DNA from: Rivularia sp. PCC 7116
GTDB lineage: Bacteria; Cyanobacteriota; Cyanobacteriia; Cyanobacteriales; Nostocaceae
Assembly (NCBI RefSeq): GCF_000316665.1
Contig: NC_019678.1
Span: forward strand, 5,456,001-5,520,000
Reading direction: 5' to 3'
Length of the DNA stretch: 64,000 bases
Below are positions 17,265 to 22,483 of the stretch, piece by piece. The position numbers and the translations under genes were made by a program. The notes beneath the pieces were generated by a model, which was not told the origin of the DNA, made no database searches, and was given only the letters and a program-made list of their open reading frames with translations. Each line of letters begins with the position of its first letter. Position 1 is the first letter of the stretch.

Positions 17265-18695
17265 TTAACTAACAGCAGCTCGCTTGTATGCTTCATCCAA
17301 AACTTCCGAAAGTGTTGGATGTGCGTGGACTAAATGAGCCAGGGAATTAACGCTTTGACGATTAGCGATCGCCGCACTTGCTTCGTGGATGATATCGGCT
17401 GCGTGAAGTCCGAAAATATGGACTCCCAACACTTCTCCAGTGTCTTTGCGGTATACAACCTTGGCGATTCCGTCGGCTTCTCCTTCAGCTAAAGCTTTGG
17501 AATTACCTTTGAAGTAACTTTTACTTACACCAACTTCAAAACCTTCAGCTTCAGCTTTTTCTTTAGCTTGCTCTTGAGTCATTCCCACATAGCTAATTTC
17601 TGGATGAGTAAATGCTGCTGCGGGAATACTGGAATAATCAATTTCCTTTGTTCTACCGCAAATGTTTTCGACAGCCGTAATACCTTGAGCCGAAGCAGCA
17701 TGAGCCAACATCATCTTGCCAGTAGCATCACCAATTGCCCATAAATGAGGTACTGGTTCCCCTTGACTTAATACAGCCATTGAGTCGTTTACTGGGATAA
17801 ACTTACGGCGATCGAGTTCAACGCTAACTGAATCCAAACCTATATTTTGCGTAGCTGGAATTCTTCCGGTAGCAACCAAACAAGCATCAACTTCCAACAC
17901 GTCAACATCTTCTTTAGTTTTAAAATCTGCTAATTCAATTATTACCGGCGAACCAGGGATAATTTTTTTAGCATATATTCCAGAATAAGTTTCAATATCG
18001 CGAGGGTTTATCAATACTCTTTCGGCAAGTTTAGCAATATCGCGGTCAAATCCCGGCATTAACTGCGGTAAAGCTTCTATCATGGTAATTTCGCAACCCA
18101 AAGCCGAATAAACATCGGAAAATTCCAAACCGATGTAGCCGCTACCGACAATTGCTACCCATTGCGGCAACCATTCCAATCTTACCGCTTGGTCGCTAGT
18201 AAATACGGTTTTACCGTCAACTTCAATCCCCGGTGGCACAAAAGGAACCGAACCGGTTGAGAGAATAATATCCTTAGCAGTAATAGTTTTTTCACCATTG
18301 GAGCTATCAACCGTAACCTTTTGTTTTCCGGCGATTTTACCCCAACCTTGAATAATATCAACACCCAAACGTTTGAGAGAATTAGTTAAATCTCCTTGAA
18401 TCTTTGCTACCAAATTATTGGCATGATTGGCGATATCCTCTCTTTCAAATCGAACATTATCAATTTGAATGCCCATAGACTTAAGATGGTAAGCATCGCG
18501 TAGCTCCCGCACTCTTCCGGAAGCTGCAAGTAAAGCCTTCGAGGGGATACAGCCACGATTAACGCAAGTCCCCCCCATATCACCAGCTTCAATAATTGCG
18601 GTTTTCAATCCGCAGCTAACGGCGTGTAAGGCAGCGCCATGTCCACCTACTCCAGCGCCTACAATCACCAAATCATAATCAAATGACTGACTCAC
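17265..18695 (-). CDS. lpdA: Dihydrolipoyl dehydrogenase (E3)
   Basis: A 476-residue FAD disulfide oxidoreductase that reoxidises lipoyl groups in the pyruvate dehydrogenase and glycine cleavage systems. Seen: FAD-binding '[16 protein letters not shown]', redox-active C44 and C49 in '[16 protein letters not shown]', NAD-binding '[16 protein letters not shown]', '[17 protein letters not shown]', and the C-terminal catalytic '[16 protein letters not shown]' with histidines 457/459 and E464. It fits lipoyl dehydrogenase better than glutathione or mercury reductase. The lpdA-trpC order gives a probable two-gene unit, though about 120 bp of repeat DNA lies between them. Confidence 0.95.
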
Positions 18696-19127: not shown

Positions 19128-21389
19128 CTATTCTCCAGAAATCATTCTTTGAAGCTCTATATATTTTTCTTGACTGAGACGATAAACTTCTGGTTCGGGC
19201 TTACCAATAAGATGTCCTTGAACATAAGTGACACCAATTTCTTTCAATTGATATAAACTAATTGGAGTTTCTTCATCCACACCTTCAACAATCACATTGG
19301 GTGGATATAAATTATTAGCTTTAACTATTTGATGAACAAAATTAATAATTAAATAATTGGATTGGTGATGTAGAATTTCGCGGTCAATTTTGACGTGACA
19401 TGGGTTTAAACCTGCCAGTCGAGAAACAGAAGAATGACCAACTCCAAAATCATCAATGGCAAATCGAATGTTGAATTTGTGAACATATTCTAAAAGCTTA
19501 TTTTTGAAAAACAATAAAGGGTTATCCAGTCTGACACCATCATTAAAATTGGGCAATTCAGATTTTTCTGAGATTTCTAAAATTAAATTTCGTGGTGAAA
19601 TAATATTTTCTTCAATAACTTCTCTAACAGTTTCAAAATATGCCTCTTTAATTAATGATTCTGGATATACATTAACTGATAATGGGACAACATCACTAAG
19701 TCTTCTTTGTTTGGATTTTCTAGCTTGTTTATAGCTTTGTGCCGCAACTCTCAGAAAATATTGGTCTAATTCAAGTTTAAATTGAGAACCCCATAATTCA
19801 GCAGCTTGAAATAAATCCACGGGAGCAGTTAAGCTCTGGGTATCTCTGGCTAAAGCTTCCCAACCACTGATAAAAAATTCATTAACATCTATACAAATAA
19901 CGGGTTCAAAATAAACAACCATTTTTTGTAATCGTTCGCAAAATAGTTGAAACCGTCTGTCATATAGGGATTTAGAAACAAATTTAAAATCCTTTTTTAA
20001 AGCATCAATAATAGCTGCCTCTACAAACATAGGCTCTAATGATTCTTGAGTACTTTGATAAAAACTCGATAAAATTTTGCCGTATGCATCTCCAAGTAAG
20101 TATGAATCGCGAGGTAAACCGCAAACCACCATAATTTCAGCTTCCGGAGGCATTTTTAACGGTATAATCGCAAAAGTATTAGCATAATTATTTCCATACT
20201 CATTGATTTTGCATGTCCCATGATATGAGGGATTGAAAACTGATTCGTAAGAAATAATTGGGAAAATTGTGGTATTTAAGATATTGATATAAGCATTATG
20301 GTCTATATTATCTGCTAAATTGCTTTGCGATTTCACAACACAATTATCATCGCTGTCGTTTTTGAGTACGAATACAAAATCAGCCTCAGAAGCTTCTCTA
20401 ATAGATTCTAGTTTTTGAAATTCTAATGTCTCTGATAAAATATTTTCAGTATTTTGGATATTAGAAAAATATGATAGTTGATTAATTAAAATCTCAATAA
20501 ATGACTCAAACGTTTCTAAGAAGTTGGGTAGATAATCGAATTGCAACGAACAATCGTCATAATTTTGTTGTTGCTGCGTTCTTCCTAACTTTAACTCACC
20601 AAAATTTATCTGATTTCTAAGAAGCGAACAACTTGTTTGATGAGATGTATATACCTTAGACAACTGAATTTTACAGCCTTCTTCAAAAGCATAAATTTCA
20701 GGTTTAGTTTTAGGTGCAGTTTTCCGCATTCTCGTGCGAGTATATTCATGCAGTTCATCAACTGAAATCACACCATCGCCATCTATATCAGCTTTACCAT
20801 TTTCAATTCCTTCAACAAGAAAGCGCGTGTAAATAGAATGATTAGAAGCTTGCTCCTCAAAAGAGTATTGAGTAGAAGTAGAAGAAGTTAAAACTGCTCT
20901 TCCTTCTCCTCCCAACTGACTTTTAATATCTATATGCCCATCATTCTTTACAGTCATACCTCTAGCAAAAGCACCGCTAAAGCAACAATCAAGAATAATG
21001 ACTTGTCTCCTGGAAAAGCTTTTATCCATGACGTTATGCACAAAACTCGCAGGCACCGTACTTGAAGTAATTAATTGTCCGTTGGGATGCTTATAAGTTT
21101 GACTACTAGCTAAATAAAGATCGCCGTTGTCATCTTTGATGCCATGTCCTGAAAAATACAGCAATACCAAATCATCTTTCCCAGAGTTAGAGAAAATTTT
21201 CTCAATCTCCATACTCATATTTGGTATCTGTGGATTTTTTAATACCTTGATATTTTCTACGGGAAAATCACCCATACCTGGATGCTGCAAAACACGTTGC
21301 ATCGCATCAACATCCTTAAGGGCACCTGGCAGGGGATTCAACTCGTATTCATAATCGCTTACCCCAATCAGCAATGCCAATTTTTTCAT
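19128..21389 (-). CDS. Caspase-like protease / EF-hand / GAF-like / EAL phosphodiesterase fusion
   Basis: A 753-residue multidomain protein with no signal peptide. Residues 1-245 form a C14 caspase (orthocaspase) domain: 'KKLALLIGVSDYE', catalytic H82 in 'YFSGHG', and C136 in 'ILDCCFSG'. A canonical EF-hand loop sits at 201-212 ('DIDGDGVISVDE': D201, D203, D205, E212), which could make the protease calcium-dependent. Residues about 290-460 look like a GAF-type sensor (weak). Residues 485-745 are an EAL domain with apparently complete metal and catalytic residues: E511 of EAL, N573, E605, D646-D647, K667, E702 and Q724, so c-di-GMP hydrolysis is plausible. The gene stands alone. Proteolysis tied to c-di-GMP signalling is inference; the domain assignments, apart from GAF, are firm. 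Confidence 0.85.
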   Translation of the reverse strand: MKKLALLIGVSDYEYELNPLPGALKDVDAMQRVLQHPGMGDFPVENIKVLKNPQIPNMSMEIEKIFSNSGKDDLVLLYFSGHGIKDDNGDLYLASSQTYKHPNGQLITSSTVPASFVHNVMDKSFSRRQVIILDCCFSGAFARGMTVKNDGHIDIKSQLGGEGRAVLTSSTSTQYSFEEQASNHSIYTRFLVEGIENGKADIDGDGVISVDELHEYTRTRMRKTAPKTKPEIYAFEEGCKIQLSKVYTSHQTSCSLLRNQINFGELKLGRTQQQQNYDDCSLQFDYLPNFLETFESFIEILINQLSYFSNIQNTENILSETLEFQKLESIREASEADFVFVLKNDSDDNCVVKSQSNLADNIDHNAYINILNTTIFPIISYESVFNPSYHGTCKINEYGNNYANTFAIIPLKMPPEAEIMVVCGLPRDSYLLGDAYGKILSSFYQSTQESLEPMFVEAAIIDALKKDFKFVSKSLYDRRFQLFCERLQKMVVYFEPVICIDVNEFFISGWEALARDTQSLTAPVDLFQAAELWGSQFKLELDQYFLRVAAQSYKQARKSKQRRLSDVVPLSVNVYPESLIKEAYFETVREVIEENIISPRNLILEISEKSELPNFNDGVRLDNPLLFFKNKLLEYVHKFNIRFAIDDFGVGHSSVSRLAGLNPCHVKIDREILHHQSNYLIINFVHQIVKANNLYPPNVIVEGVDEETPISLYQLKEIGVTYVQGHLIGKPEPEVYRLSQEKYIELQRMISGE

Positions 21390-21931
21390 TCCTTTACCTA
21401 TACAGCTAATAAAATGTTTACGAAAAACTGATTTTAATTAATTTCAATTTTGAGCGCTTAAGAAATTACAGTCCCTAGACGTTAAGGTTGGCTAATCCGA
21501 ACATTAATTTTTGTTCGCATCTTGAGCATAACTTTTGCTTAACGTCATCATCACTATTACATAATTATTTTCAGTTCGATGTAATTTCAGTATTGCAAGC
21601 ACTAAATAATACATTTTTGATTGTAATTACATAGTGTTTTTGCATAAATCAAAGATTTTGTTAAAACTCAAAGCATCTCATCACAATTGGTTTTGCCGAA
21701 TTTCTACACTTAAAATGCATTGAATGTAAAAAAGTAGCTTGGTGATTAAAAATATGATTAGCCCCCCTTCCCCCAGAGGGATTTAGGGGGCTAATAAATA
21801 CAGGAAAAACAAATTCATATTTCAATTCAGCAACGCCAAAAAAATAACCCACGTATCTTACATACGTGGGATGAGATAAAGCTAAAACAAACTTTTAGCT
21901 TGAAATATTCAATATACATCTACTCTTAAAA
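21390..21931. other. Intergenic region between the fusion gene and tRNA-Ser
   Basis: AT-rich DNA probably holding the promoter of the caspase-EAL gene. It also contains a TTAGCCCCC...GGGGGCTAA hairpin at 21758-21794, of a repeat type common in cyanobacteria, and two hairpins just after the tRNA (21848-21870 and 21880-21901). A 63-codon frame here spans these hairpins and is not believable as a gene. Confidence 0.5.
21840..21870 (-). terminator. Terminator downstream of tRNA-Ser
   Basis: CCCACGTAT and ATACGTGGG form a nine-bp stem with a five-base loop. On the minus strand it is followed by TTATTTTTTT, so it should end the tRNA-Ser transcript. Confidence 0.75.
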
Positions 21932-22018
21932 CGGAGAGGGAGGGATTCGAACCCTCGTTACCCTTTCGGGTAAACAGCATTTCCAGTGCTGCGCCTTCAA
22001 CCACTCGGCCACCTCTCC
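21932..22018 (-). tRNA. tRNA-Ser (anticodon GGA)
   Basis: An 87-nt class II tRNA: acceptor GGAGAGG pairs with CCTCTCC, the anticodon loop is CTGGAAA (anticodon GGA), a long variable arm (TACCCGAAAGGGTA) marks serine, and the T loop contains GGTTCGAATCC. The discriminator base is G and CCA is not encoded. Confidence 0.97.
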
Positions 22019-22114
22019 AGGTGCCACAAGATGATATCTTACATTGAAATCAAATAAACTGCAATCCTTGAGAGAATAATTCTATAATTACCGAATCCAA
22101 AATCCGAAATCATC

Positions 22115-22483
22115 ATGTCCTCTACATACAAAGTCACAGTTCGAGATAGAGCCAAAGGCATAACCCACACCTTAGAAGTTCCCAGCGATCGCTACATTTT
22201 GCATAGCTTTGAGAAACAAGGAGTAGAGTTACCGTTTTCTTGTCGGAATGGTGCTTGTACCACTTGTGCCGTTAGAGTCATCAAGGGAAATATTTCTCAA
22301 CCCGAAGCTGTGGGATTATCCCCTCACCTACAAAGAAAAGGTTACGCTCTATTGTGCGTTAGTTACGCTTGTTCGGATTTAGAAGTCGAAACCCAAGACG
22401 AAGATGAAGTTTACGAACAGCAATTCGGACGTTATTTTGCCAAAGGTAGAGTTCGTGCAGGATTACCCCTTGAGGATGATTAA
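22115..22483 (+). CDS. Plant-type [2Fe-2S] ferredoxin with C-terminal extension, FdC2-like
   Basis: A 122-residue ferredoxin whose cluster ligands are C43, C48, C51 and C81 ('FSCRNGACTTCAVRVIKG' and 'ALLCVSYA'). Standard photosynthetic ferredoxins are about 97 residues; this one has an extra tail 'EVYEQQFGRYFAKGRVRAGL', which resembles the tail of plant FdC2-type ferredoxins as I recall them. That type seems to serve regulatory or biosynthetic electron transfer and not the main photosystem I route. The gene is alone, directly after tRNA-Ser on the opposite strand. Confidence 0.85.
   Translation: MSSTYKVTVRDRAKGITHTLEVPSDRYILHSFEKQGVELPFSCRNGACTTCAVRVIKGNISQPEAVGLSPHLQRKGYALLCVSYACSDLEVETQDEDEVYEQQFGRYFAKGRVRAGLPLEDD

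Follow-up and report, generated by a model that had tools for sequence, protein, structure and literature searches.

The window analysed here is a stretch of 64,000 nt from Rivularia sp. PCC 7116 (NC_019678.1, positions 5,456,001-5,520,000; genome G000 in our numbering). A single uninterrupted ORF of 753 aa with an ATG start, located at 19128..21389 on the minus strand, encodes a caspase, a middle region and an EAL domain in one chain. Pfam places Peptidase_C14 (caspase) at residues 2-234 (20688..21386, minus strand; E=1.9e-24, 87.1 bits versus a cut-off of 21.4) and EAL at residues 487-731 (19197..19931, minus strand; E=2.1e-28, 99.7 bits versus a cut-off of 31.3). Both matches are well over cut-off, which bears out the claim of the initial annotation that a caspase and an EAL domain are present in one protein, and the residues that it had named (H82, C136, D201-E212, E511, N573, E605, D646, D647, K667, E702 and Q724) were correct at every position. 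The caspase His and Cys, H82 and C136, are encoded by minus-strand codons at 21144-21146 and 20982-20984, respectively, and the caspase domain also contains a single EF-hand-type calcium loop, DIDGDGVISVDE, at residues 201-212 (20754..20789, minus strand). Between the two Pfam domains lie a linker (residues 247-284; 20538..20651, minus strand), which is fast-evolving as judged by dN/dS and a candidate cleavage region, and a conserved middle region (residues 284-471; 19977..20540, minus strand), which has no family assignment and resembles GAF domains weakly.

Two neighbouring ORFs can be used as synteny markers. On the 3' side, an ORF that we take to resemble dihydrolipoyl dehydrogenase (17265..18695, minus strand) lies on the same strand as the fused gene, and is also found 3' of unfused EAL genes. 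On the 5' side, a presumably 2Fe-2S ferredoxin-like ORF (22115..22483, plus strand) has the opposite orientation, with a tRNA-Ser (GGA; 21931-22019, minus strand) between it and the start of the fused gene.

Full-length orthologues of the window protein are present in Rivularia sp. MS3 (89% identity) and in Calothrix parasitica NIES-267 (76% identity). Comparison of the window gene with these two orthologues gave dN/dS values of 0.08 and 0.10 for the caspase part, 0.14 and 0.17 for the middle region, 0.12 and 0.13 for the EAL part, and 0.57 and 0.42 for the linker. Purifying selection thus acts on the caspase, middle and EAL parts and is relaxed in the linker. Because full-length orthologues at 89% and 76% identity exist and the dN/dS values of the caspase and EAL parts are low, the fusion is not a chance event. 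A model of the full-length window protein, built from a three-row alignment, had a mean pLDDT of 34.8, too low for use.

The middle and EAL parts of the window protein together served as query for the distribution searches. Of the 217 genomes of the window's family, 51 gave a match (E<=1e-40). An order sample of 388 genomes yielded 11, ten from the same family and G188 from outside; a phylum sample (386 genomes) yielded five (E<=1e-35), all from the window's family and all also contained in the order sample. Among the eight same-genus genomes listed, three have the module and five do not. In the samples searched, the EAL subfamily is therefore almost confined to one cyanobacterial family. For further analysis, 51 loci were read: the one in G188 and one in each of 50 family genomes. 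G688, whose match carries an internal stop, was omitted, and so was a second place each in G730 and G706.

All EAL catalytic positions are preserved in these loci: E511, A512, L513, R515, N573, E605, E608, D646, D647, K667, E702 and Q724 are identical in 51/51. The best solved EAL chain by sequence similarity is 4y9o (E=9.7e-10). The window EAL scores 102.9 bits; the other five EAL matches in its genome score 214-267 bits. Judged by its sequence, it belongs to a diverged, catalytically complete subfamily for which c-di-GMP hydrolysis is predicted.

What stands in front of this module differs between loci. According to the alignment of the 51 loci, 21 (in 21 genomes) have a caspase resembling that of the window (type A), three a second kind of caspase with a DSCHSG motif and without calcium loop (type B; G675, G686 and G111), two a CHAT domain (G788 and G801; Pfam E=2e-8 and 1.5e-7) and one an EAD4 domain (G368; Pfam E=7.4e-18). 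The remaining 24 loci, of which two run into a contig end, showed no N-terminal domain, so such a domain is dispensable to the EAL module. The same fusion as in the window thus recurs in 21 genomes, and a general loss of catalytic residues, which would have spoken against the initial annotation, was not observed, as the full EAL set is accompanied by an intact caspase dyad in 20/21 type-A proteins. The possibility that the fusion is an artefact of misassembly, a frameshift or chance motif matches found no supporting point. It runs against the clean ORF, the type-A fusion in 21 genomes, the orthologues named above and the low dN/dS, and since full-length orthologues exist we regard it as refuted, with negligible residual probability.

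In the type-A fusions, the caspase His is kept in 21/21 and the Cys in 20/21; His and Cys are likewise kept in the 3/3 type-B and 2/2 CHAT proteins. The one deviating type-A protein (G759, locus L149) has Asn at the D134 position and Ser at the catalytic C136 position and retains the loop, and is by its sequence likely a pseudo-caspase still joined to a complete EAL domain. The loop of the window protein fits the canonical 12-residue EF-hand pattern D-x-D-x-D-G-x-I-x-x-x-E. D201, D205 and G206 are invariant in 21/21 type-A proteins, and positions 203 (D or N) and 212 (E or D) vary conservatively in the same 21/21. The pattern D-x-[DN]-x-D-G-x-[ILVM] was found in 21/21 type-A proteins and in 22/26 close caspases with other C-termini, and was absent from all 22 distant caspases and from all three type-B proteins. 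Pfam EF-hand models did not reach the cut-off in the window protein (best E=0.009, 15.9 bits versus 25.9), and we therefore speak of a calcium-type loop and not of an EF-hand domain; as the loop sits inside the Pfam C14 match, it does not form a separate domain either. The loop is thus a sequence marker of a caspase subfamily, whatever the fusion partner, with predicted calcium binding. Since it belongs to the subfamily regardless of partner, it is no argument for a link to the EAL domain. Of the EF-hand claimed initially, the canonical and conserved loop stands, whereas a Pfam-level EF-hand and a specific association with EAL do not.

K148 (20946-20948 in the window), shortly after the catalytic Cys, corresponds to a basic residue in 21/21 type-A proteins and is a candidate self-processing site, yet its conservation may be structural. 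Each of the 21 type-A linkers contains at least three K or R residues, and no basic linker position is fixed across them. These data bear on the idea that the caspase part is a scaffold, in other words a calcium-sensing regulator that changes EAL activity without any cleavage. The loop kept in all type-A fusions, the pseudo-caspase of G759 with its loop but Ser for Cys, and the linker without a fixed cleavage site would all agree with such a role, which we nevertheless consider highly improbable in view of the His and Cys retained in nearly all type-A, and in all type-B and CHAT proteins.

The middle region of the window protein (about 284-471) has no Pfam match. The label "GAF-like" given to it in the initial annotation is so far unconfirmed. 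When 35 of the 51 middle regions were compared with Pfam GAF, none matched at E<=1, with the reservation that few matches weaker than about 0.1 pass the HMMER filters. A middle-region profile compared by hhalign with 30 GAF domains of the window's genome gave a probability of 11% and a score of 24.9, a weak signal. Scores were 9.2-16.7 for eight column shuffles, 12.4 for the EAL profile and 14.0 for the caspase profile; with a slightly longer middle alignment, probability and score were 6.5% and 23.2. Weak matches to PDB sequences, mostly dUTPases (best E=0.099), were judged to be due to chance. A model of the middle region, again from a three-row alignment, reached a mean pLDDT of 36.8, too low for use.

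The flanking genes indicate how the different N-termini may have come about. A ferredoxin-like gene within 2 kb on the 5' side and on the opposite strand was found in 4/21 type-A loci (G000, G695, G795 and G799) and in 17/24 loci without detected N-terminal domain. Both flanks together surround a fused gene in G000, G795 and G799, and an unfused gene in G698, G715, G716, G719 and G804. As the same two flanks occur with and without the caspase, the caspase part has been gained or lost at one resident gene; the trees are unrooted and do not separate gain from loss. The EAL tree comprised 49 of the 51 rows (G689 and G678, cut by contig ends, were left out), and 48 of the 56 loci offered entered the caspase tree, beside 24 fused ones. 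In the tree of the 21 type-A and 24 close caspases, 17 EAL fusions cluster (93/94), and the Rivularia clade and G695 are found elsewhere. An AU test rejected a single clade of the 21 type-A EAL-fusion caspases (p=0.016; 21 versus 24 rows), although the test followed inspection of a first tree, and the caspase trees have a weak backbone. With the same reservation about the backbone, a single fusion event for all type-A proteins is disfavoured. The type-B caspases fall outside the clade that unites type A with the close caspases. Together with the AU result, this makes more than one caspase acquisition likely. Counting EAD4 and CHAT, the sequences suggest that pairing of the EAL module with N-terminal domains has likely occurred repeatedly. 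CHAT domains and caspases are members of one clan, and an ancient common origin of the CHAT fusions and the other fusions is therefore conceivable.

Remnants of a caspase were also sought upstream of the partnerless EAL genes, and none could be established. A tblastn search found nothing notable in eight loci. The sole strong match among 22 loci (G676, E=4e-10) was rejected because the alignment covers mainly linker, and a "YKIVLAL" look-alike in several relatives, situated in AT-rich sequence ahead of the probable start codon, was judged to be due to chance.

The variety of partners can be read in two ways. Caspase and EAL module might be promiscuous cassettes, the caspase joining many C-termini without specific coupling and the parts acting separately. 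The same caspase subfamily is indeed joined elsewhere to GUN4, Clp_N and TPR C-terminal partners, the EAL module has no detected partner in 24/51 loci, and caspases are numerous, with 2-15 matches in each of eight genomes. On the other hand, one EAL subfamily takes unlike partners that are mostly of protease type, both active sites are under purifying selection when fused, and of the six EAL and seven caspase matches in the genome of the window, just one EAL match is in frame with a caspase match. We consider mere promiscuity unlikely. Rather, the caspase-EAL pairing looks functional, since relatives of the EAL domain bear several unlike partners in the same place. As a separate observation, Calothrix parasitica has a second small caspase-like ORF (L002:2330-3049) about 3 kb from its fused gene, 22% identical to the caspase of the window (E=2e-7).

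Many caspases of the subfamily are directly preceded by a small gene, roughly 125 codons long. From 27 of these genes a profile was built, omitting the interrupted or partial L074, L030 and L023. With Pfam EACC1, nine of the 27 proteins give a match (best E=9.3e-5), with the next family three. The EACC1 matches are weak: of four proteins scanned one by one, two matched under the cut-off and the other two gave no match. The sequences show a Gly-rich hydrophobic stretch. We call these genes EACC1-like, and because they are usual upstream of the subfamily, they connect it with the EACC1-caspase conflict systems of the literature. Such a gene, or a remnant of one, lies directly upstream of 23/26 close caspases with other C-termini (20 uninterrupted), and beside none of the 22 distant caspases (about 1.5 kb of flank each). 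Among the EAL fusions it was found beside 8/21, intact in G803, G695, G751, G741, G743 and G697 and as a remnant in G729 and G730 (L131 and L132), where the last 27-30 profile positions alone match just upstream of the fused gene and the partner has apparently decayed. The other 13/21 fusions lack it. Fisher tests that ignore relatedness, and so offer no proof, gave p of about 0.0004-0.0005 for a lower frequency in EAL fusions than in other close caspases (6/21 versus 21/26, where the 21 include L074 with an internal stop and 20 are uninterrupted; or 8/21 versus 23/26 with remnants). In G220, an EAL gene without caspase has an EACC1-like gene on its 3' side. The window, L001 and L002 had no EACC1-like match at E<=0.01, and we therefore do not file the window gene as a member of System 4, the published EACC1-caspase system (Kaur et al. 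2020; PMC7159879). By analogy, it shares the kind of caspase and may work likewise. The one EACC1-like match in the window's genome (L187:6230-6622; G000:C1:3979250-3979618) has no adjoining caspase, and could therefore act in trans.

The distribution of EACC1-like genes also bears on the direction of control. In the main rival to the mechanism proposed below, control would run in reverse. The middle and EAL parts would be the sensor, of c-di-GMP or of another molecule bound by the middle region, and would switch the caspase on or off, which would make the protein a protease under c-di-GMP control. The shortage of EACC1-like genes beside EAL fusions, compared with the close caspases, looks as if the input had been swapped. 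Moreover, the module occurs alone or with several unlike N-terminal domains, as would be expected of a sensor common to several outputs, and the window EAL is diverged. Pure receptors of the EAL type often lack some of the catalytic residues, whereas all of them are kept in our 51/51 loci. The sensor might also be an active enzyme. Altogether we rate reverse control as rather unlikely, and still as the competitor to be taken most seriously.

The reading that we prefer, tentatively and at somewhat less than an even chance, is that of a caspase-gated c-di-GMP phosphodiesterase, in which we infer enzymatic activity, control by calcium, self-cleavage, the direction in which control runs, and the effect on the cell. 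The protein would be an orthocaspase of the EACC1-associated subfamily whose swappable C-terminal slot holds a phosphodiesterase module made of the middle and EAL parts. The caspase would be the trigger: a stress signal, probably including Ca2+ at loop 201-212, would order the active site, and the caspase would then cut its own chain behind a basic residue, either near K148 or within linker 247-284. Self-cleavage would alter or free the EAL part, and cellular c-di-GMP would fall. We propose a caspase trigger and an EAL effector because this order fits both the published autoproteolysis idea and the kept active sites. The initial annotation had already suggested a coupling of calcium-triggered proteolysis to c-di-GMP turnover, for example through autocleavage, and its interpretation is partly supported, by the conserved architecture and the retained catalytic residues. 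Several observations weigh against our preferred reading: the missing EACC1-like gene in the window and in 13/21 fusions, the weakness of the EACC1 matches, the 24/51 loci with a seemingly partnerless EAL module, the five same-genus genomes that have no module, the linker with no fixed basic residue, the Ser of G759, the divergence of the EAL domain, and the self-activation of MaOC1 without calcium.

A possible consequence is suggested by Anabaena PCC 7120, in which, according to one report (PMC13075795), cells that lose c-di-GMP shrink, stop growing and die, and filaments fragment. As c-di-GMP is essential there, a phosphodiesterase activated by proteolysis could decide the fate of the cell. 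In the extreme case, a calcium-triggered caspase would free the phosphodiesterase, c-di-GMP would drop under the threshold that is lethal in Anabaena, and the cell would stop or die for the benefit of the filament, perhaps in defence. We regard this cell-fate switch as distinctly improbable and as speculation beyond the gating itself. If it were true, the effector would be an emptied signal pool rather than a nuclease or a pore.

The caspase-EAL fusion joins two fields that are barely in contact, bacterial caspase-like proteases and c-di-GMP signalling. The triggers and targets of the former are largely unknown. If the coupling is real, an orthocaspase gains a measurable output, the c-di-GMP level, together with a candidate trigger, Ca2+, and the role of cyanobacterial caspases becomes directly testable. 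The finding also draws attention to pairs of EACC1-like genes and caspases among cyanobacteria, and to the conservation of a calcium-type loop within a protease group that has been described as calcium-independent.

The initial annotation knew of no described system of this kind. This view holds insofar as no analysis of an orthocaspase or caspase domain paired with an EAL domain was found in the literature searched, supplements being outside its scope, and nothing related to a link between metacaspases and c-di-GMP was found in the searched portions of that literature. It needs qualification in two respects. A census of 473 cyanobacterial orthocaspases lists EAL in two and GGDEF in one (PMC8283722), and a GGDEF-bearing orthocaspase is mentioned in another paper (PMC3501461). 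Furthermore, the paper on System 4 describes EACC1 as partner of a constant caspase with up to 50 different C-terminal domains, and puts forward the deployment of the effector by autoproteolysis as a hypothesis (PMC7159879); the EAL domain is not named in the main text of that paper. Within the literature searched, as far as the sources were available, the caspase-EAL pair has thus been counted in print and not analysed.

System 4 is prevalent in actinobacteria and sporadic in proteobacteria, according to the same paper (PMC7159879). Like System 4, the window's subfamily has a constant N-terminal caspase with interchangeable C-termini (GUN4, Clp_N and TPR, and EAL in the window), and many relatives of the window gene have a small EACC1-like gene directly 5'. 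Unlike System 4, the window copy lacks an adjoining EACC1-like gene, and its caspase has an EF-hand-type loop. EAD4 is described as an adaptor in the same network of conflict systems (PMC8195603). A link to effector-associated proteins with EAD4 (Kaur et al. 2020, 2021) is the EAL relative of G368, which is fused to EAD4, whereas the window protein has no EAD.

Orthocaspases are described in two papers as lacking p10 and as calcium-independent, MaOC1 being the tested case (PMC5756287, PMC7475262); this characterised orthocaspase self-activates without calcium (PMC7475262). In the literature searched, the combination of orthocaspase and EF-hand was found in one source alone, which mentions the motif for seven archaeal proteins (PMC6426788). 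The window protein resembles cyanobacterial orthocaspases in its Peptidase_C14 domain, its His-Cys dyad and the frequent presence of a C-terminal partner, and its subfamily differs from MaOC1, as reported there, in the conserved calcium-type loop. Finally, compared with EAL phosphodiesterases such as PA3825 and RocR in the PDB, the window EAL belongs to a diverged subfamily almost restricted, in the samples searched, to one cyanobacterial family and is partnered N-terminally by a protease-type domain, and it shares with them the sequence similarity to solved chains and the full catalytic set.
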